Origin: Desulfobulbaceae bacterium
Lineage (GTDB): Bacteria; Desulfobacterota; Desulfobulbia; Desulfobulbales; SURF-16
Direction of reading: 5' to 3'
DNA: 39,022 bases
Assembly (NCBI GenBank): GCA_003249165.1
Contig: QKJV01000250.1
Coordinates: 1-39,022, forward strand
Positions within the stretch are counted from its first letter, which is position 1. Each line of letters opens with the position of its first letter. The translations under genes were made by a program, and so were the position numbers. The notes under the pieces are model-generated. The model was not told the origin of the DNA and did not search any database. It saw only the letters and a program-made list of their open reading frames with translations. Below are positions 6,235 through 29,223 of this stretch, one piece after another.

Positions 6235-6308
6235 TGGCTGGGGGACAGGGATTCGAACCCCGATAAGCGGAGTCAGAGTCCGCCGCCTTACCATTAGACC
6301 ATCCCCCA
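6235..6308 (-). tRNA. tRNA-Gln (anticodon CUG), CCA encoded
   Basis: Read on the minus strand, the molecule begins TGGGGGAT and ends TCCCCCA-G-CCA. The acceptor stem is a perfect 7 bp that starts with the U1-A72 pair characteristic of glutamine tRNAs, with discriminator G73 and a genome-encoded CCA. The anticodon arm is GCGGA-CUCUGAC-UCCGC, so the anticodon is CUG and reads CAG codons. The D arm contains AATGGTAAGGC, and the T loop is TTCGAAT on a 5-bp stem with one G-U pair. It stands alone with its own promoter just upstream. Confidence 0.96.
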
Positions 6309-18559: not shown

Positions 18560-18637
18560 TATTATGACAAAGTGTCCCGGTCTGACAAGCTGGTTTTTTG
18601 ATTGCCCGACACTGTCACCGTGGATATCTGACAGTCA
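18547..18637. promoter_or_regulatory. Cluster of GACA/TGTC palindromes, probable operator region
   Basis: Between the divergent hydantoinase and dctP genes are four short palindromes: GACA-N3-TGTC at 18547-18557 and again at 18566-18576 (19 bp centre to centre, near two helical turns), GACACTGTC at 18608-18616, and TGACAGTCA at 18629-18637. The first two also form TTTGTCA-N6-TGACAAA at 18552-18571. The MarR-like regulator encoded at 21580-22113 is the most likely binder; that is inference. Confidence 0.55.
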
Positions 18638-18689
18638 AGGCGGTTATGATTCGTGTTCGTCTAAAGCCTCAACAGAAAGGAGATTTACC

Positions 18690-19673
18690 ATGAAATCCAT
18701 CTTTACCCATCTGCGCTGTACTGCTGCTGCGGTAACCATCGGTCTGGGAATGACTATTCAGGCCCAGGCAGCCACCTGGGATATGCCGACCCCTTATCCA
18801 GATGCAACCTTTCACACCCAGAATATAGCTCAGTTTGCAAAAGATATCGAAGATGCTACCGGCGGCGAATTGACAATCAAGCTACATACTGCCGGTTCGC
18901 TCTATAAACACCCGGAGATCAAAAACGCCGTTCGAGGCGGCCAGGTACCTATCGGTGAATTTTTCATTTCGCTTATCGGCAACGAAAATCCTGTATTCGC
19001 GGCAGATTCTCAACCATTTCTTGCCACGAATTACGATGATGCAAAAAAACTATGGGATGCCCAGAAGCCTATCGTTGCCGACCTGCTCGACAAACAGGGC
19101 CTGATGCCGCTGTTCTCTGTGCCATGGCCTCCGCAAGGGCTTTATACCAGAAAAGAGATCAAGACAGTCGATGACCTGAAAGGCATTAAATTCAGAGCAT
19201 ACAATCCGACGCTTGAAAAATTTGCCAATCTGATCGGCGGTGCCCCAACCCAGGTCGAAGTTCCGGATCTGCCGCAGGCATTTACCACCGGGCGGGTTGA
19301 GGCAATGATCACCTCTCCTTCCACAGGCGCAAATTCAAAGGCCTGGGACTTTGTTACTCACTATACCGATATCCAGGCATGGCTTCCGAAAAATATCGTC
19401 GTCGTCAACAAGAAGGCGTTCCGCAAACTTGACAGCAAGATACAGGAAGCCGTACTTGTCGCTGCAGCTTCCGCAGAAAAACGTGGCTGGGAAATGAGCA
19501 AGGAAGAAACCGCAGCCAAAACTGCCATCATGAAAGACAATGGTATGATCATTGTTCAGCCAAGCGCAGAACTGATGAAAGGTCTGCAGGAAATTGGCAA
19601 GGCCATGCTGGTTGACTGGCAAGAAAGTGCTGGCGCAGAAGGTGAAGCACTTCTGAAAGCATACAACCAGTAA
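18690..19673 (+). CDS. TRAP transporter substrate-binding protein (DctP family)
   Basis: A periplasmic binding protein of 327 residues. It has a signal peptide (MKSIFTHLRCTAAAVTIGLG, cleavage near IQAQA), a mature start TWDMPTPYPDATFHTQN, and the DctP-family region DLKGIKFRAYNPTLEKFANL, where the arginine in KFRAY normally contacts the substrate carboxylate. QVEVPDLPQAFTTGRVEAMI is the other conserved stretch. The start at 18690 has GAAAGGAG ahead; the frame is open 42 codons further upstream without support. It delivers ligand to the QM permease encoded downstream. The neighbouring hydantoinase suggests a cyclic amide or its product with a carboxylate, such as 5-oxoproline, as the ligand. 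Confidence 0.93.
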   Translation: MKSIFTHLRCTAAAVTIGLGMTIQAQAATWDMPTPYPDATFHTQNIAQFAKDIEDATGGELTIKLHTAGSLYKHPEIKNAVRGGQVPIGEFFISLIGNENPVFAADSQPFLATNYDDAKKLWDAQKPIVADLLDKQGLMPLFSVPWPPQGLYTRKEIKTVDDLKGIKFRAYNPTLEKFANLIGGAPTQVEVPDLPQAFTTGRVEAMITSPSTGANSKAWDFVTHYTDIQAWLPKNIVVVNKKAFRKLDSKIQEAVLVAAASAEKRGWEMSKEETAAKTAIMKDNGMIIVQPSAELMKGLQEIGKAMLVDWQESAGAEGEALLKAYNQ

Positions 19674-19683
19674 TAAATATTTT

Positions 19684-19718
19684 AGGGGCTCCGCCAGGCT
19701 GTTTTCTTCGGGGCCCCT
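19684..19718 (+). terminator. Intergenic hairpin between dctP and dctQ
   Basis: AGGGGCTCC (19684-19692) pairs with GGGGCCCCT (19710-19718) over nine positions with one wobble. It begins 10 bp after the dctP stop and has no T-run. It may stabilise the dctP message or reduce read-through, so that more binding protein than permease is made. Confidence 0.5.
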
Positions 19719-19734
19719 GACTGACTTGAGGCAA

Positions 19735-20271
19735 ATGCTCAGAAAAGGACTCAACACACTGTATACGGTTAGCGGCTGGTTCGGAGCGGCCTGTATTGCG
19801 GCAATCTGTCTGCTTGTGGTCTGCCAGGTCGGGCTCAATGCCATCGACCGTATCAGCACGCTTGTTACAGGAACGGCAATCGGACTGACAATTCCATCCT
19901 ATGCAGATTTCACCGGTTTTCTTCTGGCTGCCTCATCATTTCTGGCACTCGCCTACACTCTCCGGCAGGGAGCGCATATCAGGGTAAGTCTTATTTACAC
20001 CCATGTTCCCGAAGGCGCACAGAAGGTGCTTGAAGGCTGGTGTTTTTTATTCGGTGCAGCCGTATCTATCTATTTCAGCTGGTATACCGCCCAGCTGACC
20101 TGGGAAAGTTACTCCTACCACGATCTTTCTCCGGGCATGATCGCGGTGCCGCTCTGGATTCCACAGTCCGCCATGCTCACAGGCTTGGTTGTACTTTCAA
20201 TCGCCCTGATTGATAGCTTTTTCAGCCTGCTTCTTGAGGGAACACAACGCAAAAGGGAAGAAAATGTCTGA
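19735..20271 (+). CDS. TRAP transporter small permease (DctQ family)
   Basis: A 178-residue inner-membrane protein with four predicted helices (ACIAAICLLVVCQVGLNAI, FTGFLLAASSFLALAYTL, a segment around FLFGAAVSIYFSW, and SAMLTGLVVLSIALIDSFF). The family hallmark LRQGAHIRVSLIYTHVPE after the second helix is present. It forms the membrane complex with the large permease. The start is uncertain: the ATG at 19735 has GAGG only 3 bases ahead, and a TTG at 19726 is in frame. The stop overlaps the dctM start by 8 bp, which indicates coupled translation. Confidence 0.88.
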   Translation: MLRKGLNTLYTVSGWFGAACIAAICLLVVCQVGLNAIDRISTLVTGTAIGLTIPSYADFTGFLLAASSFLALAYTLRQGAHIRVSLIYTHVPEGAQKVLEGWCFLFGAAVSIYFSWYTAQLTWESYSYHDLSPGMIAVPLWIPQSAMLTGLVVLSIALIDSFFSLLLEGTQRKREENV

Positions 20272-21568
20272 ATTGACGATGATAGGTATTCTTCTCCTCC
20301 TGCTTTTTGTTCTGCTCGGCAGCGGCGTCTGGGTTGCATTCTCTCTTCTTGGCGTGGGGATGGCAGGCATGCTGTTTTTTACCGATGCCCCGATGGGACA
20401 GGTGCTTGCAACCACAGTCTGGGGATCAAGCAACAGCTGGGCCTTGGCAGCTCTTCCCCTTTTCATCTGGATGGGAGAAATACTGTTCCGCTCTCGGCTA
20501 TCGGAAGACATGTTTGCCGGGCTCTCGCCTTGGCTCAATCATCTACCCGGTAAGCTGCTGCACGTCAACATCCTCGGCTGCGGAATCTTCGCTGCAGTTT
20601 CCGGTTCTTCAGCTGCCACCGCAGCGACCATCGGTAAAATGTCGATCCCCGAACTGACCAAACGGGGGTATCCCGAAAACATGGTTCTGGGCACCCTAGC
20701 AGGATCGGCAACCCTCGGCCTTCTCATTCCTCCGTCAATAATCCTGATTGTCTACGGCGTTGCAACTGAACAGTCCATTGCCAGACTGTTTATCGGAGGC
20801 ATTCTGCCGGGTCTGATGCTGGTTGCCCTTTTTATCGGTTATGTCATTATCTGGTCGCTCTTTCATCGTGATGACATCCCTGACGATGAAAAAGAGTCTA
20901 GCTCTCTTGCGGAAAAATTTCAGGCAAGTCGCCGCCTAATTCCGGTTATCCTGCTCATTGTTGGCGTTATCGGATCAATATACAGCGGCATTGCATCGCC
21001 CACCGACGCAGCAGCCGTCGGCGTTCTGCTCTCGCTGCTTCTCTCCTGGTTTACCGGCAGCCTAAACAGGCAGACCTTTTTTGACGGCCTGATGGGAGCT
21101 ACCAGGACATCATGCATGATTGCCTTCATCCTGGCTGGAGCCGCCTTTCTCACAGTTGCCATGGGTTTTACCGGGATTCCAAGGATGCTTGCGCAATGGA
21201 TTGCCACCCTGCAACTTTCACCCTATGCCCTGCTCGGAGCACTGACTATTTTTTTCATTATCATCGGCTGCTTTTTAGACGGTATCTCTGTTGTCGTCCT
21301 GACCACATCCGTTATCATGCCGATGGTCGAACAGGCAGGTATTGACCCGCTCTGGTTTGGAATTTTTGTTGTTATTGTCGTGGAAATGTCTCAGATAACA
21401 CCACCAGTAGGGTTCAATCTCTTTGTCATACAGGGACTAACCAACATCAACATTCTAAGAGTTGCCTACGCAGCTATTCCGTTCTTCCTACTGCTACTGG
21501 CGGCACTCGCTCTAATCGTTATTTTCCCGGGCATCGTCACCATAATGCCGACCATGATGGGCAACTGA
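20264..21568 (+). CDS. TRAP transporter large permease (DctM family)
   Basis: A 434-residue membrane protein with about 12 hydrophobic helices that carries out sodium- or proton-driven import of the ligand bound by DctP. Family segments seen are LFIWMGEILFRSRLSEDMF, AVSGSSAATAATIGKM, GTLAGSATLGLLIPPSIILI, the ASPTDAAAVGVLLSL stretch and EMSQITPPVGFNLFVIQGL. The start at 20264 follows GGGAAGAAA and overlaps the end of dctQ (ATGTCTGA). It is the last gene of the operon and ends 11 bp from the convergent MarR-like gene. Confidence 0.94.
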   Translation: MSELTMIGILLLLLFVLLGSGVWVAFSLLGVGMAGMLFFTDAPMGQVLATTVWGSSNSWALAALPLFIWMGEILFRSRLSEDMFAGLSPWLNHLPGKLLHVNILGCGIFAAVSGSSAATAATIGKMSIPELTKRGYPENMVLGTLAGSATLGLLIPPSIILIVYGVATEQSIARLFIGGILPGLMLVALFIGYVIIWSLFHRDDIPDDEKESSSLAEKFQASRRLIPVILLIVGVIGSIYSGIASPTDAAAVGVLLSLLLSWFTGSLNRQTFFDGLMGATRTSCMIAFILAGAAFLTVAMGFTGIPRMLAQWIATLQLSPYALLGALTIFFIIIGCFLDGISVVVLTTSVIMPMVEQAGIDPLWFGIFVVIVVEMSQITPPVGFNLFVIQGLTNINILRVAYAAIPFFLLLLAALALIVIFPGIVTIMPTMMGN

Positions 21569-22113: not shown

Positions 22114-22221
22114 GCTTTTCTCCTCAAGATATTTTGTAAAGACGGGGAATGAATCAAGACATCACTGTACCAGATTTCGGTAGTGAATCCAATGGATCAC
22201 AGCTTTTGTGCCAGAAAAACA

Positions 22222-22257
22222 ACAAAGCCGATAACGTATACACGTTATCGGCTTTGT
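22222..22257 (-). terminator. Rho-independent terminator of the ECF sigma operon
   Basis: A perfect 16-bp inverted repeat, ACAAAGCCGATAACGT and its complement, has a 4-base loop (22238-22241). On the minus strand it is followed by TGTTTTTCTGG. It lies 33 bp after the stop of the exported protein gene and separates that operon from the MarR-like gene. Confidence 0.9.
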
Positions 22258-22290
22258 CTGCTCCATCCTTCCCGGCAGGATATTCAGCGC

Positions 22291-23085
22291 TTATTTGTCG
22301 CTGTTTCCTCCTTTGTTGCCGTTATTACTTTTACTGCTGCTGTTTCCACCTTTATTACCGTTGTTGGTTTTTGTCTTTGTGGTTGTCTTGCTCTGTTGTC
22401 CAGGAGCACTTGCAGATTTTCCTTTGGAGGTGCTAGCGCTTACAGTGTCAGTGCTGCTGTCCGCAGCATCAACTCCGCTTGATTTGTTCTTGCTCTTTCC
22501 GTTGTTGCTTGCCGCATAGGCATGGCCTTTTGCAAAACCTGTCTGGGTGTCTCTGGCAGTGGCCTCAGCCAGTTCTGCAGCTGCATCGTCAGCACTGTCA
22601 TCCACTACTTCCACATCGCCATACTTATTCTTATTCTTGTTTCTTTTAGTATGACCAAGACCCAGAAGCCCTGGATGAATATCCAGCGCATGGGCAATTT
22701 CACCCCAGCCCATGCCGCTTGCACGCATGGCCTCTATTTCATCAGCACTTGTTCCAACAGCAGTAGCAAGAGCTTCTTCATAAGCAATTTCCAGATCATC
22801 TGCAGCCGTAATGAGCTCTTCATTAGTCGGATCATCGCTAAGGGCGCTCAACGCATCCTGATACTCTTCCCATGCCAGCGCGACCTCCTCATTACTTTTT
22901 GCATCCTCTTCTGCCAGCTGTGCTGCATGAGCTGCCTGGGCAGGATTTGAGTAGTAGCTTTCTGTCGGCTCGTCAACATCCTCAGCCAGTACGGGTGTTA
23001 CCAATCCGGCAAGAATCAGGGTTGTACCAAGAATCACTAAACGGCCTTTTCCGGTCAAAACAATCTTTTGTAATCTGCTCTTCAT
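22291..23085 (-). CDS. Exported low-complexity protein, last gene of the ECF operon
   Basis: A 264-residue protein with a Sec signal (VILGTTLILAGLVTPVLA, cleavage before EDVDEP). Residues about 45-115 are an acidic helical region (AQLAEEDAKSNEEVALAWEE, NEELITAADDLEIAYEEALA). The segment DEIEAMRASGMGWGEIAHAL followed by DIHPGLLGLGH (about 115-146) looks like a small helical or helix-turn-helix-like motif. The C-terminal third is Ser/Asn/Gly/Lys-rich and low complexity, with NNGNKGGNS repeated. It starts by ATGA overlap with the anti-sigma candidate gene, so it is part of that operon, and a strong terminator follows. It has no catalytic motif that I can see; a structural or sensed surface/periplasmic role is possible. 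Confidence 0.8.
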   Translation of the reverse strand: MKSRLQKIVLTGKGRLVILGTTLILAGLVTPVLAEDVDEPTESYYSNPAQAAHAAQLAEEDAKSNEEVALAWEEYQDALSALSDDPTNEELITAADDLEIAYEEALATAVGTSADEIEAMRASGMGWGEIAHALDIHPGLLGLGHTKRNKNKNKYGDVEVVDDSADDAAAELAEATARDTQTGFAKGHAYAASNNGKSKNKSSGVDAADSSTDTVSASTSKGKSASAPGQQSKTTTKTKTNNGNKGGNSSSKSNNGNKGGNSDK

Positions 23086-24209
23086 ATCATCTTCCTCTCT
23101 ACTTTTTTCTGTGAAACCTGGGTAAAAATCAGGATGCTGTTTTTCAACTCGACGGGTTTTGTCTCTGCATTGCCCTCAAGCTTCTCTGCAACATCAAACC
23201 AGCTGATCTTCACATCTAAATTCTGCTGCACATCTTTTTGTCCGAGAATTTTTGTTCTCAACTGAATCGCTGTTTCTTTTGCGTTTTCCAGATCACCCTC
23301 ATTAAATATTATCAAGTTAAGTGCAATATCATCCGCTGATGTGTATGAGAGAATCCGGTCAATTTCGAGTTCAGTGCTTTCTCCCATCGGCTGCAATAAA
23401 CTCATGGTGTCTATCACCATATCGGTGGCACCGATTTGAAAGACCCGGTATCTGAAATCACCAAGCCTGTTAAGGTGCAAAGCCGCCCGCCTTGCCCACT
23501 TGCCCGTTCTGGACCATTGCAGGTACTGGTAGTAGGCATCTTTTTCACGATGGGTATCGCCCATCTCCCGATAAACGAGGGCCTGATTGTAAAGAGCCTG
23601 CAGGTTTCCCTCATTTTTATCAAGAACCAGCTGATACTGTTTCAGTGCTTCATCAAACTCCTGGTGTTCGAGATAGCTATGGCCAAGATTCAGATTCGCC
23701 TGATAAAAATTCGGCTGAAAAGAAAGGCTTCTCTGATAGCTGCTTCTCTCTTTTGTGACCTCGCCAATCATTCCATAGGCAACGCCCTGCCAATAGGCAA
23801 AATCAGCTCTGGATGGATCAATAGTGTTGGCCTGATTGAGAAATTCAAGAGCCTGGCGATACTCACCGCCGGCTATCAGCCCACGGCCGATAAGAAACAT
23901 ACTGTCCGCAGACTGATCGGGCCGTGGCTCCAGCACGGCAATTTGCTGCCCTGCAGATTTTTGCAAATGCATTCCTCCGTAAAAGGCTGTTGCAACAAGC
24001 AGAACAGATACGGCAACCGCTGCAGGCTGCAACCCAAAAAATAAAGGCTGCTTGAACCAACGGGCCCATCTGATAAAAAATGGACAGGCTTCTCTTTTAT
24101 CGACCTCTGCCATGATTCTGTCAGCAAGATCCGGCGGCGGTATCTGATCGTCTGCATATCGCAGCAGATTTCCCAATAATTCCTGTTCTTCTCGACTGAT
24201 TTTATTCAT
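23082..24209 (-). CDS. Putative anti-sigma factor with TPR and OmpA-like periplasmic part
   Basis: A 375-residue single-pass membrane protein. Residues 1-50 are cytoplasmic (EEQELLGNLLRYADDQIPPP, then DLADRIMAEVDKRE), the kind of short tail that holds an ECF sigma factor; no zinc-binding HxxxCxxC motif is seen. One membrane helix lies at about 57-80 (FGLQPAAVAVSVLLVATAFY). Residues about 105-255 are TPR-like repeats, ending in the motif AALHLNRLGDFRYRVF. Residues about 265-350 resemble a degenerate OmpA-like domain (LNLIIFNEGDLENAKETAIQ, LDVKISWFDVAEKLE). The gene overlaps the sigma factor gene by ATGA and the exported protein gene by another ATGA. The pairing with the sigma gene and the membrane topology support an anti-sigma role. 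The same TPR-OmpA architecture recurs in the lipoprotein at 24844-25860. Confidence 0.75.
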   Translation of the reverse strand: MNKISREEQELLGNLLRYADDQIPPPDLADRIMAEVDKREACPFFIRWARWFKQPLFFGLQPAAVAVSVLLVATAFYGGMHLQKSAGQQIAVLEPRPDQSADSMFLIGRGLIAGGEYRQALEFLNQANTIDPSRADFAYWQGVAYGMIGEVTKERSSYQRSLSFQPNFYQANLNLGHSYLEHQEFDEALKQYQLVLDKNEGNLQALYNQALVYREMGDTHREKDAYYQYLQWSRTGKWARRAALHLNRLGDFRYRVFQIGATDMVIDTMSLLQPMGESTELEIDRILSYTSADDIALNLIIFNEGDLENAKETAIQLRTKILGQKDVQQNLDVKISWFDVAEKLEGNAETKPVELKNSILIFTQVSQKKVERKMI

Positions 24210-24760
24210 CTTTGTTCTTTTTCCAGCCTATTTTTCAATTCCTCAAGACCGCGTTTCACCTTCATCTTCACCGAACTTTCGGTCAGTCCGAAAGCAGCTG
24301 CAACTTCACGAACCTTCATATCATGTTCGAACCGGGCTAGCAGGATTTCCCGGGTCTGCTCGTGAAGCTGCAGGAGAGCTAATTTCATATTATCAGCGGC
24401 TTCACGGTGCTCGAACTGTTCATGCTGCCTAGGCAGCGAAGCTGATCGATCCTGTTCTTTCTGCTCTATGATGTACTGTTTTGCCGTGTTTAAATTATTT
24501 TTTCGCTTCCAATCACGTAACCTGTTGATAGCAATCGTATAGAGCCACGGGAAAAATGGCCGATCACGATTAAATCGCCAGAGCTTATCAAAAGCGATAA
24601 TAAACACTTCCTGAGAAAGATCGGCAGCTTCTTCACTACTGTGCGTAACGCGGTACATCAGGTTGTAAACCGGCTTTTGATAGCGTTCGATCAATAATCT
24701 GAACGTCTCTTTTTCACCGGCCAGAACCTGCTCAACAATTTCCTCATCTGAGACGTTCAT
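24206..24760 (-). CDS. ECF-type RNA polymerase sigma factor (RpoE-like)
   Basis: A 184-residue extracytoplasmic-function sigma factor. Region 2 is clear: FRLLIERYQKPVYNLMYRVT, then EEAADLSQEVFIIAFDKLWR and FFPWLYTIAINRLRDWKRKN for -10 melting. Region 4 is ILLARFEHDMKVREVAAAFG followed by LTESSVKMKVKRGLEELKNR, the -35-binding helix-turn-helix. A linker of about 35 polar residues joins them. GGAAA stands a few bases before the ATG. It follows the lipoprotein gene by 83 bp and overlaps the membrane anti-sigma candidate by 4 bp, the usual layout for ECF pairs. It is expected to be released by an envelope signal. Confidence 0.94.
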   Translation of the reverse strand: MNVSDEEIVEQVLAGEKETFRLLIERYQKPVYNLMYRVTHSSEEAADLSQEVFIIAFDKLWRFNRDRPFFPWLYTIAINRLRDWKRKNNLNTAKQYIIEQKEQDRSASLPRQHEQFEHREAADNMKLALLQLHEQTREILLARFEHDMKVREVAAAFGLTESSVKMKVKRGLEELKNRLEKEQR

Positions 24761-24843
24761 CGGTTATTTCCATGCTCTCTGGCCAAATTTGTTGCTCTTT
24801 ATATGAGAGATACGAATGAGAAAATAAATGGTCACAATTTATT

Positions 24844-25860
24844 TTATTTTTTGAATGTTTTTTCCACATCACTCAGGAAAAATTTGACTGATTCAGAATG
24901 GCTGATATTTTTGTTCATCACCTTTACAGCTTCAGGAGTAGCAAACCAGCTAAGACGGATTCGCTTCTGTTTTTCCAGCTCGGGGTAATGTTTGTAAAGA
25001 TATTCACGAATCGACAATGCCCGTTTACGGGCCAGCTCCTTATTGTTCAACTGATAAACAACAATATTGAGTACACCCTTCGACATACTGGTGACGACCG
25101 CACCGAGATGTTCAAGTGATGGAGTTGATTTGGCATCGAGTTTTTCGCTTAGTGGCTCAAAATAAATCTTGGTCAGCGTCACCGTTCTCACACCAAGAGT
25201 GTGGTTGCGATACGTGTCGTCGCCAAGCCTGTTTAGATGATTTGCTGCAAGTTTGGCAAATTTTCCGGATGGGTGTCGAGTAAGATATTCAAGCCAGGCT
25301 ACTTTTTCCTCCGGGGTCCGTCCGAGATTTTTCAGGACGAGGGCACGGTTAAAAAGTGCCTGAGGTGCATTCGGCCAGAGTTCAAGGGCCGTTGTATAAT
25401 ATTGAAGAGCAGTTTTGTATTTCTGAGCGCGCAAGTACCAGTTACCGAGATAGATGACCGCCAGCACATTGGTCTTGTCATACTTTATAGCGAGCTCATA
25501 ATACTTCTTCTCATTACCGGGCTGCCCGAGTTCACCATAGGTAACACCAAGCCAGAAATTGTAGATACTTTTATCAGGGGCGAGCTTCACCGCCTTGAAA
25601 AATTCATTGCTGGCTGATTTATTTTTTTCGGCGGCAAGAAGGAAACGACCATAATAATAATGTGCTTCAGCATTTGCCGGCTGCGCTTTTACAGCATTTG
25701 CAAAGTGCGATTCGCCTTTATCAAAATCATTGCCCTGGAGATAATACTGACCTTGAATATTATATTTGAGGGTGTTGCCGTAATCCTGAACCCCCTGAAA
25801 ATGAGTACAACCGGAAAGACATAAAGAAAACAAAAAGATAAGAACAAAAACTCTACGCAT
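24844..25860 (-). CDS. TPR lipoprotein with degenerate OmpA-like C-terminus
   Basis: A 338-residue lipoprotein. The signal MRRVFVLIFLFSLCLSGC ends in a lipobox with Cys18, so it should be lipid-anchored; +2 is Thr, which does not suggest inner-membrane retention. Residues about 25-215 are TPR-like repeats (YYLQGNDFDKGESHFANAVK, VIYLGNWYLRAQKYKTALQY). These are followed by LAANHLNRLGDDTYRNHTLG and an OmpA-like segment: IVVYQLNNKELARKRALSIR, EYLYKHYPE, RIRLSWFATPE. OmpA-like domains bind peptidoglycan, but key residues are not obvious here. The layout matches the anti-sigma candidate nearly along its whole periplasmic part. The start at 25860 has GGAGG 8 bases ahead; an ATG 7 codons upstream lacks support. 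It is likely the first gene of the sigma operon. Confidence 0.87.
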   Translation of the reverse strand: MRRVFVLIFLFSLCLSGCTHFQGVQDYGNTLKYNIQGQYYLQGNDFDKGESHFANAVKAQPANAEAHYYYGRFLLAAEKNKSASNEFFKAVKLAPDKSIYNFWLGVTYGELGQPGNEKKYYELAIKYDKTNVLAVIYLGNWYLRAQKYKTALQYYTTALELWPNAPQALFNRALVLKNLGRTPEEKVAWLEYLTRHPSGKFAKLAANHLNRLGDDTYRNHTLGVRTVTLTKIYFEPLSEKLDAKSTPSLEHLGAVVTSMSKGVLNIVVYQLNNKELARKRALSIREYLYKHYPELEKQKRIRLSWFATPEAVKVMNKNISHSESVKFFLSDVEKTFKK

Positions 25861-26116
25861 GTAACACGCCTCCACATTCATTTACCAGGCAATGTCATAG
25901 AGCTCAACTCCCCATATTTTTTTAATGTAACAGAAATTATACAATATGGCAAAATCGGATTTCCCTATTTATTCATCACGACACATAATTCAAACCAACA
26001 AACTATTACTGTTATTTCAATGAGATTGATAAAAAGTTGCAAAATAGCACAAAAACCTTGAATCCGATCATTTTGCGCAATATTTGAAATTTATCCCGCC
26101 TGCAGGCTTGCTGTTA
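25861..26116. other. Divergent intergenic region with a possible lipoprotein promoter
   Basis: About 400 bp in all separate the lipoprotein gene from the second TRAP operon. A TATAAT on the minus strand at 25936-25941 could be a -10 for the lipoprotein operon, but no good -35 is seen, so an ECF-type promoter cannot be excluded. No gene is visible. The TRAP promoter in the right part is listed separately. Confidence 0.45.
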
Positions 26117-26257: not shown

Positions 26258-27331
26258 ATGAAAAAAGGAAGCCTTAAGGCTCTTGCAGCCCTTGCTGTTT
26301 CAGCAACCATGGCTTTTACCGGGGCAACCGGAGCTTTTGCTGCCAAGTTCAAAGATGAATACAAACTGACCATCAACATCGGTCCTACCTACTACTGGGG
26401 TATGGGGGCGATCAAGTTCAGCGAGCTTGTCAAAGAAAAAACCAACGGCCAGATTAATATCAAACCCTATTTCGGCAGCTCCCTGATGAAAGGCGCCCAG
26501 CTGAAATCTCCTCAGATGGTTGCCATGGGTGCAATTGACGTTGCCTATGAATCAACCATCAACGCAGCACCGGTTATCCCTGAGATGAACATCTTCTCCC
26601 TACCGTTTTTCATCAATACATATGAAAATCTGGACAAGTTGACCGAAGGTGAAACCGGAAAAATGATCTTTTCCGCCATGGAGAAAAAGGGTCTCGTGCC
26701 CCTTGCCTGGGCTGAAAATGGTTTCAGACAGCTGACCAACTCAAAACACCCGGTAAAAACGCCAGAGGATATGAAAGGACTGCGTGTGCGTGTTGTCGGA
26801 AGTCCAATCTTTATTGAAACCTTCAGACAGCTTGGTGCTGATCCTGTAAACATGAACTGGGGCGATGCAACAACCGCCTTTCAACAGGGCGTTGTAGACG
26901 GCCAGGAAAACCCTGTCGGAGTACTGCTTCCGGTTCAGATATGGCAGTATCATCAGTATGTCTCCATGTGGAACTACCTCGTTGATCCAGTCATCATTTA
27001 CTGGGGACAGAAAGAATGGGCAAAGTTTCCACCTGAAATTCAGCAGGCTATCCGTGAATCAGCAGTGGAATCTGCCCGGTTTGAGAAAGCTCTGTGCCGC
27101 GCCGGTCTTGACGGCGATAAGTCGCTGAAAATCCTGAAAGATGAATTTAACTACGTAATGGAAGTTCCTGATCCAATCAAATACATGGAAGAAAAAGGTG
27201 CCACCTTTACCACCCTCTCCAAGGAAGACCTTGCTAAATTCATCGAAGCCACCAAACCGATCTACGACAAATGGGTAGATGAGATTGGAAAAGACATCTA
27301 TGAAAAAGCTAAAGCTGACATGGCAAAATAG
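26258..27331 (+). CDS. TRAP transporter substrate-binding protein (DctP family), second copy
   Basis: A 357-residue periplasmic protein. The signal is MKKGSLKALAALAVSATMAF with cleavage near GAFAA. The DctP features are TINIGPTYYWGMGAIKFSEL at the start, the conserved DMKGLRVRVVGSPIFIETFR with the ligand-binding arginine, and TTAFQQGVVDGQENPVGVLL. A very strong ribosome binding site, GGAGGAGAAA, precedes the ATG. Its sequence differs clearly from the binding protein at 18690, so the ligand should differ. It is the first gene of a dctPQM operon, followed by a strong hairpin. No enzyme gene adjoins except citramalate synthase, which has its own promoter, so the ligand cannot be guessed; a small carboxylate is typical of the family. 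Confidence 0.94.
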   Translation: MKKGSLKALAALAVSATMAFTGATGAFAAKFKDEYKLTINIGPTYYWGMGAIKFSELVKEKTNGQINIKPYFGSSLMKGAQLKSPQMVAMGAIDVAYESTINAAPVIPEMNIFSLPFFINTYENLDKLTEGETGKMIFSAMEKKGLVPLAWAENGFRQLTNSKHPVKTPEDMKGLRVRVVGSPIFIETFRQLGADPVNMNWGDATTAFQQGVVDGQENPVGVLLPVQIWQYHQYVSMWNYLVDPVIIYWGQKEWAKFPPEIQQAIRESAVESARFEKALCRAGLDGDKSLKILKDEFNYVMEVPDPIKYMEEKGATFTTLSKEDLAKFIEATKPIYDKWVDEIGKDIYEKAKADMAK

Positions 27332-27361
27332 CATTAGCCGATAGCGTATTACCTAATGGAC

Positions 27362-27402
27362 GGGGACAGCTTCTCTGCAAGCTGTCCCCTTTCTTTGCTT
27401 TT
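27362..27402 (+). terminator. Terminator-like hairpin with T-rich tail between dctP and dctQ
   Basis: GGGGACAGCTT (27362-27372) and AAGCTGTCCCC (27379-27389) make a perfect 11-bp stem with a 6-base loop. A T-rich tract with few interruptions follows (27390-27402). It lies inside the operon, so it probably ends most transcripts after dctP and lets some reach the permease genes. Confidence 0.75.
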
Positions 27403-27449
27403 ACCCTTGGCCGCTCTCGGCTTTGGCCTGAAAAACAACGCAAACAACA

Positions 27450-27929
27450 ATGAAACAACAAGAACGCAAACTTAGGGCTGATCACATTATCGTTGCCCTG
27501 CTGCTCTTCATTATGGCTGTCATCGCCTTCATCAATGTACTGAGCCGGTATATTTTTCATTTTTCCTTTGCCTGCACGGAAGAAATAACCATCAATCTCT
27601 TTGTTTGGATGACTGTCATCGGCACCGGACTGGCCTTTGAACAGGGTGGTCAGCTTGGAATGGTTACCCTGTTCAACCACTTCCCGACTACCATGAAGAA
27701 ATCACTGATCATTTTCAGTTCGCTGCTTGCAGCCCTGCTCTTTGTCGTTGTCGATTTCTACATGATTAAAGCTATCTATTACGAGCTCACAATTTTCAAC
27801 GCCACCTCCGGAGCTCTTGGCATCCCGGTGTGGATCTATTATGCCGGTGTTCCGCTGTTCTCGATCTTTGTCTTCACCGGCATTTACCGGGATAACATGA
27901 AAAAATTAGCCGACATCAGCAAGGAGTAG
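27450..27929 (+). CDS. TRAP transporter small permease (DctQ family), second copy
   Basis: A 159-residue inner-membrane protein with four hydrophobic helices (HIIVALLLFIMAVIAFINVL, the ITINLFVWMTVIGTGLAFEQ segment, IFSSLLAALLFVVVDFYMIK, and IYYAGVPLFSIFVFTGIY). FEQGGQLGMVTLFNHFP after helix two matches the DctQ hallmark. Its ribosome binding site is poor, which fits low expression after the upstream hairpin. The dctM gene starts 4 bp after its stop. Confidence 0.88.
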   Translation: MKQQERKLRADHIIVALLLFIMAVIAFINVLSRYIFHFSFACTEEITINLFVWMTVIGTGLAFEQGGQLGMVTLFNHFPTTMKKSLIIFSSLLAALLFVVVDFYMIKAIYYELTIFNATSGALGIPVWIYYAGVPLFSIFVFTGIYRDNMKKLADISKE

Positions 27930-27933
27930 AACC

Positions 27934-29223
27934 ATGGAAATTTGTATCATCACCGTCGGGTTCCTGCTGATGATGGGAATGGGTGTACCTATCGGAACAA
28001 CACTTGGTGTTGCCGGAGTTGCAACCCTGTACTTTCTCGATCTCGGTATTGATATGCTGGGGGTTAACTACGCTTCAGGTATTGCATCCTTTCCGCTCCT
28101 GGCCATCCCCTTTTTTGTTCTGGCAGGCTATATCCTGGAGCGAGCCGGACTCGCCGCCACCATTGCCAGATTCTTTGAACTGATTGTCGGCAAGGCCACT
28201 GGCGGACTGGCAACAGTCACCGTCTGTACCTGTATGTTCTGGGGCGCCTTGTCCGGATCAGGGCCTGCAACCACCGCTGCTGTCGGCCTCATCCTGCTGG
28301 CTCCCATGCTCCGCCACGGCTATGACAAAAACTTTGCTGGCGCACTGATTGCCAATTCGTCCGATCTTTCCATCATCATTCCGCCATCAATCGCCTTTAT
28401 TATTTACGGCAATATTACCGGTGTTTCAGTCAGCGCCCTTTTTCTCGCAGGTATTATCCCAGGCATTCTCACAGGGATTGCAACTATTATCATGGCGTAC
28501 CTGATCTCAAGGAAGCGCGGCTACAGGGGCCTTGAAAAACGCGGTTCACTCAAGGAAATCCTGCTAGCACTCAAAGGAGCAATCTGGGCTATTCTCGCCC
28601 CTGTAATAGTCCTTGGCGGTATTTATGCCGGTATCTTTACCCCGACAGAAGCAGCTGTCGTGGCAGTATTCTATTCACTTTTTGTCAGTGTTGTTATCTA
28701 TAGGTCGATCACAATAAAAGATTTCATCTGGATTCTTGTTGATTCTGCGGTAACAAGTTCTGTTGTCATGTTCATTGTTGTCTTTGCCGGAATTTTTACC
28801 TGGGCAACCTCGGTCATCGGCTTTGTTGACACTTTTGCCAACTTCATCATCAGCATTTCTCCCAATGCCCTTGTGATGATAATTCTGATCAATATTCTTC
28901 TGCTCGCTCTTGGCATGATACTGGACGCAATATCCATCTCTTTTCTGATATTGCCCATTCTTATTCCAGTGCTTGCAGCATTTCATGTTGATCCGCTCTG
29001 GTACGGCGTTATTTTCATCTCTGCGCTGGCCATCGGCCAGGCGACTCCGCCGGTTGGAGTCAACCTCTTCACCGCTGCCAACCTGATCGGGACAGATGTT
29101 GATTCTGTAGCTAAAGAGGCTGTGCCTTTTATCATTGTCGATGTCATTGTGCTGGTTATTATTTCGCTGATCCCGGCTTTATCAATGTACCTTCCAGTTT
29201 TATCGGGGCTTTACACACCATAA
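27934..29223 (+). CDS. TRAP transporter large permease (DctM family), second copy
   Basis: A 429-residue membrane protein with about 12 helices. Typical DctM stretches are LLAIPFFVLAGYILERAGLA, MFWGALSGSGPATTAAVG, NSSDLSIIIPPSIAFIIYG, FTPTEAAVVAVFYSLFVSV and IGQATPPVGVNLFTAANLIG. AAGGAG stands ahead of the ATG. It completes the second TRAP operon. About 120 bp and a promoter separate it from cimA, so it probably ends the transcription unit, although no terminator is obvious after it. Confidence 0.94.
   Translation: MEICIITVGFLLMMGMGVPIGTTLGVAGVATLYFLDLGIDMLGVNYASGIASFPLLAIPFFVLAGYILERAGLAATIARFFELIVGKATGGLATVTVCTCMFWGALSGSGPATTAAVGLILLAPMLRHGYDKNFAGALIANSSDLSIIIPPSIAFIIYGNITGVSVSALFLAGIIPGILTGIATIIMAYLISRKRGYRGLEKRGSLKEILLALKGAIWAILAPVIVLGGIYAGIFTPTEAAVVAVFYSLFVSVVIYRSITIKDFIWILVDSAVTSSVVMFIVVFAGIFTWATSVIGFVDTFANFIISISPNALVMIILINILLLALGMILDAISISFLILPILIPVLAAFHVDPLWYGVIFISALAIGQATPPVGVNLFTAANLIGTDVDSVAKEAVPFIIVDVIVLVIISLIPALSMYLPVLSGLYTP

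Follow-up and report, generated by a model that had tools for sequence, protein, structure and literature searches.

The 39,022-nucleotide stretch of DNA analysed here (the window) probably encodes a self-contained ECF sigma/anti-sigma circuit whose sensor was copied from a neighbouring lipoprotein. Gene order, paralogy, a promoter and a constant N-terminal module outline this predicted circuit. The locus contains genes for a lipoprotein (LP), an ECF sigma factor (SIG), a membrane protein (TM) and an exported protein (EXP). A first-pass annotation had listed these four genes in one direction, and their coordinates, their translations and their common orientation (minus strand, spanning 25860-22291) were all confirmed. 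The features are as follows.

24844..25860, minus strand: LP, 338 aa counted from the ATG at 25860; TPR lipoprotein whose C-terminal OmpA-like domain is degenerate (lipobox, translation)
24808..24837, minus strand: predicted ECF-type promoter of SIG-TM-EXP, TTGTGACCATTTATTTTCTCATTCGTATCT (conserved motif; PWM score 23.1)
24206..24760, minus strand: SIG, ECF sigma factor, 184 aa (Pfam, TIGR02937 and PDB matches)
23082..24209, minus strand: TM, probable anti-sigma factor, 375 aa (ATGA overlap with SIG; structure model; N-terminal module)
22291..23085, minus strand: EXP, exported protein, 264 aa (translation; conserved with the unit)
22221..22258, minus strand: intrinsic terminator of SIG-TM-EXP (stem of 17 pairs, loop of 4, T-rich tail)

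Gene order and the SIG-TM-EXP transcription unit

The lipobox of LP reads LSGC, and a further ATG is present in its open reading frame at 25881. Two ATGA overlaps, at SIG/TM and TM/EXP, join the last three genes as had been described, and the closing terminator was also found, its stem made up of 16 Watson-Crick pairs and one G-T pair. The proposal of a four-gene operon did not hold, as LP is not joined to the others. Its stop lies 83 bases from the SIG start, and the core genes SIG-TM-EXP stand behind their own conserved ECF-type promoter inside that gap.

This promoter, TGTGACC-N15/16-CGTATA, was present in 41 of the 44 LP-SIG intergenic regions (GTGAC and CGT set 16 or 17 bases apart, most copies having the longer forms TGTGACC and CGTATA), while shuffled LP-SIG intergenic sequences gave a mean of 0.38 and a maximum of 2. 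The window has GTGACC at -35 and CGTATC at -10; LP ends only 7 bases ahead of the motif, with no terminator between them. In one further locus, L085, the motif is located slightly downstream of the script-chosen SIG start. Three loci (L034, L038 and L087) have a strong intrinsic terminator separating LP from the promoter, and L085 has one separating LP from SIG. The conserved promoter between LP and SIG, together with terminators ahead of SIG in these four loci, indicates that SIG-TM-EXP is a conserved transcription unit. The predicted co-transcribed core is thus SIG-TM-EXP, and LP precedes the core promoter. Of the 32 regions upstream of LP, 6 contain the same promoter, and a predicted SIG-type promoter serves LP in some loci only.

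ECF sigma factors contain regions sigma2 and sigma4 only and are about 180-200 aa long. SIG matched Sigma70_r2 (E 8e-16), r4_2 (E 5e-11) and TIGR02937 (E 2.5e-29), all above cut-off, and its PDB matches were AlgU, SigW and RpoE. Judged by its domains, sigma2 and sigma4, SIG is a plain ECF sigma factor. An autoregulated ECF-type promoter ahead of the sigma operon is usual, if not universal, and the promoter of the SIG operon is, judged by its sequence, very probably autoregulated. A search of viral contigs for relatives of the SIG protein found none. Matches in PHROGs were limited to phage sigma factors and to TPR-like families with no assigned function, PADLOC gave no match, and an Rfam scan of the window returned only a tRNA at 6238-6308.

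A constant N-terminal segment of TM is found with two unrelated sensors

TM has a single hydrophobic stretch (residues ~56-74), flanked N-terminally by positive residues. The N-terminal segment of ~55 residues ahead of it was modelled at pLDDT 50-60. The Hx3Cx2C zinc motif is optional in class I anti-sigma factors; it was found in 0 of 44 relatives, in line with its reported absence from the window's protein. None of the curated anti-sigma models (ASD, zf-HC2, RseA_N, DUF2275) scored above cut-off for TM. Sub-threshold matches were obtained with NF052375 (E 0.0027; 7 of 12 proteins scanned, best 2.3e-4), DUF2275 (E 0.02) and RseA_N (E 0.17). A profile of the N-terminal segment found no significant match among solved structures; the match to RsiW (E 0.43, residues 49-76) is suggestive at most. 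The whole TM architecture was matched by no model in Pfam or NCBIfam.

A profile of the first 60 residues of the TPR-type TM proteins found five proteins of a second type (CBM-type) with E values of 1e-13 to 4e-12, and the next unrelated ORF had an E value of 0.55. In four of these loci (L081-L084) the order is SIG, membrane protein, helical exported protein, LP and EXP. The membrane protein there has a TM-like N-terminal segment and helix, and its periplasmic part is AMPK1_CBM/CBM48 (Pfam runs for AMPK1_CBM were on the L083 protein and the similar L078 protein). LP and EXP are present in the CBM-type loci and the LP-like sensor is absent. The promoter occurs twice in L081, L082 and L084, once ahead of SIG and once ahead of EXP; in L083 the sequence around SIG is masked. 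In the Calditrichota locus L078 the promoter precedes LP, SIG and a second EXP gene. The helical exported protein between the membrane protein and LP (for example L083 5093-5905) has no family match.

One constant cytoplasmic segment attached to two unrelated sensors, with the same SIG neighbour, is what an anti-sigma factor predicts. The earlier view of TM as an anti-sigma candidate is upheld: its N-terminal module stays beside SIG with either sensor. We consider this good evidence that the short, zinc-less N-terminal segment is the predicted sigma-binding part of TM, and SIG and TM very likely form a sigma/anti-sigma pair. A separate locus (L160 4693-7474, in G162) carries LP, SIG and EXP with no recognisable TM between SIG and EXP.

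LP and TM are paralogs with a degenerate OmpA-like part

The periplasmic TPR plus OmpA-like part that had been noted in TM was borne out by the structure model (mean pLDDT 81.8), with TPR-like helical pairs at residues 100-250 and an OmpA-like alpha/beta fold at residues 254-365. Fold comparison of TM gave mainly TPR proteins among the best 50. LP, which has TPR matches and a weak OmpA match in Pfam, aligned with TM over both the TPR and the OmpA-like parts (BLASTP E 1e-32, 28% over 252 aa). In a tree of 43 TM and 41 LP proteins the two groups were split on one branch (support 97/96), and the inner branching of the two groups was similar. The simplest reading of these sequences would be a single old duplication that predates the unit's dispersal, after which both copies were inherited together and TM changed at the faster rate.

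Both groups share 38 columns at at least 80%. Residues outside the TPR consensus that are kept in more than 85% of both clades include an R in repeat 1, a W in repeat 2, an N in repeat 4 and an SWF motif. The retention of these residues suggests related ligands, and we tentatively propose, at somewhat less than even confidence, that the ligands of TM and LP are identical or related.

In OmpA-like peptidoglycan-binding domains an Asp and an Arg hold diaminopimelate. We assigned these positions in LP and TM by eye, against the usual OmpA motif. In this alignment the Asp of the usual HTD motif has no counterpart in LP or TM, and the Arg that follows it is present in 31 of 41 LP and 11 of 43 TM proteins (Thr in the window's TM). 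With the OmpA Pfam model, LP scored 18.3 bits against a cut-off of 27.2 and the window's TM gave no match. Judged by these residues and scores, the OmpA-like part of LP and TM does not look like a standard peptidoglycan-binding OmpA domain. An OmpA-based peptidoglycan tether was rejected, as the defining residues do not appear to be retained in the by-eye alignment.

EXP and the predicted SIG regulon

EXP consists of a signal peptide, a helical part, the motif GMGWGEIAHxLxxHPGxLGLGH and a disordered, low-complexity tail rich in Gly, Ser, Asn and Lys. It has no Pfam match, and its model (pLDDT 61) covers the helical part only. We consider it quite probable that EXP is the main output of SIG.

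In 40 genomes the strict promoter motif gave about 22 matches outside the units, against 18 in reversed controls. These counts do not support a large regulon, and the predicted SIG regulon looks small. A role in envelope stress is likewise not shown, as the motif counts point to a small, local regulon and gave no stress regulon. One match outside the unit (G184:C60:96224) stands immediately ahead of an EXP gene that is distant from the unit. In the same genome one unit copy of EXP, at L111 (positions 1-1737, G184:C17), has lost the conserved core, and there the tail consists of long GSGGGSGGG and NMNMNDMM repeats; the second EXP gene, on C60, has an intact core and its own promoter. High-scoring motifs also precede unrelated exported-protein genes in L181 (~4941, G135:C3, ~260 bases upstream) and L182 (~1268, G143:C84), and these genes are possible further regulon members. 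Some LP-EXP pairs occur with neither SIG nor TM, and in most of these the promoter motif is missing. Distant exported proteins resembling the EXP core, with a G-x-x-WG-x-IA motif, were found in L202, L203 and L204 (G296, G441 and G331, respectively). They belong to another family of the phylum and have no LP or SIG nearby.

Relation to known systems

The class I membrane anti-sigma factors (RseA, RsiW, RskA and zf-HC2 proteins) are like TM in that they are single-pass proteins with a cytoplasmic N-terminus and a periplasmic sensor, adjoin the ECF sigma gene and have an autoregulated promoter. Zinc-less members are known (PMC7406223). TM differs in its N-terminal segment, which is only ~55 residues long, zinc-less and below cut-off with the curated models, and in its sensor, which combines TPR and OmpA-like parts and is a paralog of the adjacent LP.

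A close parallel is Tt-RpoE1/Tt-TolB of Thermoanaerobacter tengcongensis, in which the gene after the ECF sigma factor encodes a protein with 39 cytoplasmic residues, one membrane helix and a large domain outside the cytoplasm. Tt-TolB residues 1-39, ahead of the membrane helix, suffice for ECF sigma binding, and Tt-RpoE1 reads its own promoter (PMC3397946). This system differs in its TolB-like sensor and its lineage, and it is not reported to include a lipoprotein paralog or EXP.

In the SigI/RsgI systems of Clostridium thermocellum the anti-sigma sensor is also homologous to output modules, and copies carry different sensors. RsgI6 has a GH10 domain and SigI6 drives GH10 xylanases, while CBM3 occurs in several RsgI proteins and in CipA (PMC4711584, PMC6056542). 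In contrast to the unit described here, these systems have a separate sigma group, a Gram-positive host and no lipoprotein, and the RsgI cytoplasmic domain is, as far as known, not related. Neither a SigI-type sigma nor the RsgI N-terminal domain was among the listed Pfam and NCBIfam matches. TPR domains also take part in ECF regulation in ECF42, as a cytoplasmic C-terminal extension of the sigma factor itself (PMC8103513, PMC8999054), whereas here they are periplasmic and belong to the anti-sigma candidate.

The literature search found nothing on the LP-SIG-TM-EXP arrangement. As far as the literature and the family libraries were searched the system is undescribed, although its kind, ECF sigma/anti-sigma, is already known.

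Distribution of the unit and origin of the contig

The search for loci covered 258 genomes of Desulfobulbales and a named genome collection. The complete order LP-SIG-TM-EXP was found in 39 loci, which provides the gene-order conservation that the first-pass annotation had proposed to look for, and LP-SIG-TM was found in 43. The TM/EXP ATGA overlap is kept in most loci. The SIG-TM junction varies by locus, with the genes overlapping or abutting in nearly all. The hosts include Desulfogranum mediterraneum (Desulfobulbaceae) and several Desulfobulbales and Desulfobacterales MAGs. Phylum-wide, LP was detected in 6 of 395 genomes; the unit is rare outside Desulfobulbales rather than a general feature of the phylum. 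The units have no flanking genes in common, except that in L107 a hydantoinase-like gene with 48% identity stands close to the unit. In the window, two plus-strand TRAP transporter gene sets (18564-21568 and 26258-29223) flank the minus-strand unit.

The contig (G000:C158) encodes a citramalate synthase that is 79-80% identical to those of the best genomes of the unit-bearing family f12 and 67-68% identical to those of the bin's assigned genus. A second citramalate synthase, at C426, is present in the bin and shares 67% identity with the first; the bin's contamination rating is 6.5%. In the tree, the window's LP and TM group with the f12 genomes. Taken together, these observations indicate that the contig was probably binned in error and comes from a Desulfocapsaceae-like bacterium. 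Such contamination of the bin accounts for the data better than horizontal transfer into the host genus, which was rejected. The finding on the unit is not affected by the contamination.

A proposed mechanism and its alternatives

In the circuit that we propose, TM would reside in the inner membrane and its cytoplasmic N-terminal segment would keep SIG inactive. A signal at the periplasmic TPR/OmpA-like part would release SIG, probably by proteolysis by analogy with other ECF systems. Freed SIG would bind RNA polymerase and read the TGTGACC-N15/16-CGTATA promoters. Its main target would be its own operon, so that the levels of SIG, TM and the secreted, glycine-rich EXP would increase in concert; in certain species a SIG promoter would also serve LP or a separately placed EXP gene. 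Since the TM sensor derives from the LP domain by duplication, TM and LP may share the same or related ligands. The candidates are EXP itself, or a component of the wall or surface, such as peptidoglycan or a surface glycan, that LP and EXP would act on, and in either case the switch would meter its own product or substrate. The CBM48 variant hints at the surface glycan. The CBM-type loci have no LP-like sensor, and the sensor therefore need not share the LP ligand everywhere. A more specific proposal is that TM senses the product of its own circuit: the LP duplicate would compete with the outer-membrane LP that handles EXP and so give homeostatic feedback on EXP, and other lineages would have swapped the sensor for CBM48. 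We regard this version as doubtful.

An ordinary envelope-stress system, in which the OmpA-like domain of TM would be tethered to peptidoglycan or the outer membrane and lost contact or misfolding would free SIG for a broad repair regulon, is unlikely. It would fit a single-pass anti-sigma candidate with a periplasmic OmpA-like fold beside a lipoprotein with the same domain. However, in the by-eye alignment the HTD Asp has no counterpart and the Arg, kept in most LP proteins, is found in only about a quarter of TM proteins, and the near-equal motif counts in real and reversed sequence give no sign of a broad regulon.

It is less probable still that the main role of TM is structural, as a partner of LP and EXP in assembling a structure of the envelope or surface, with SIG inhibition secondary or absent. 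The periplasmic architecture shared by the co-inherited TM and LP, and the LP-EXP pairs that occur without SIG and TM, would agree with such a role, but the N-terminal module stays beside SIG even where CBM48 replaces the periplasmic part, and SIG and TM overlap or abut in nearly all loci. Finally, a four-gene operon with one promoter upstream of LP and an incidental internal motif is very improbable: the terminator-free 7 bases after LP in the window would permit read-through, but the motif is kept in nearly all LP-SIG intergenic regions, four loci have terminators ahead of SIG, and the CBM-type loci rearrange SIG and LP while the motif stays with SIG and EXP.

The predicted sigma/anti-sigma circuit adds to the sulfate-reducing bacteria a well-conserved, undescribed ECF system with a predicted promoter and a predicted output, and a cultured host is available (Desulfogranum mediterraneum DSM 13871). 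The paralogy of LP and TM and the joining of the cytoplasmic segment to a CBM as well were not part of the first-pass annotation. They provide a minimal, zinc-less candidate anti-sigma segment common to two unrelated sensors, and a clear natural case in which the sensor of a putative anti-sigma factor was made by copying a neighbouring effector. The point of interest in the unit is this paralogous, exchangeable sensor, which makes it directly testable whether a sensor sees what its effector sees.
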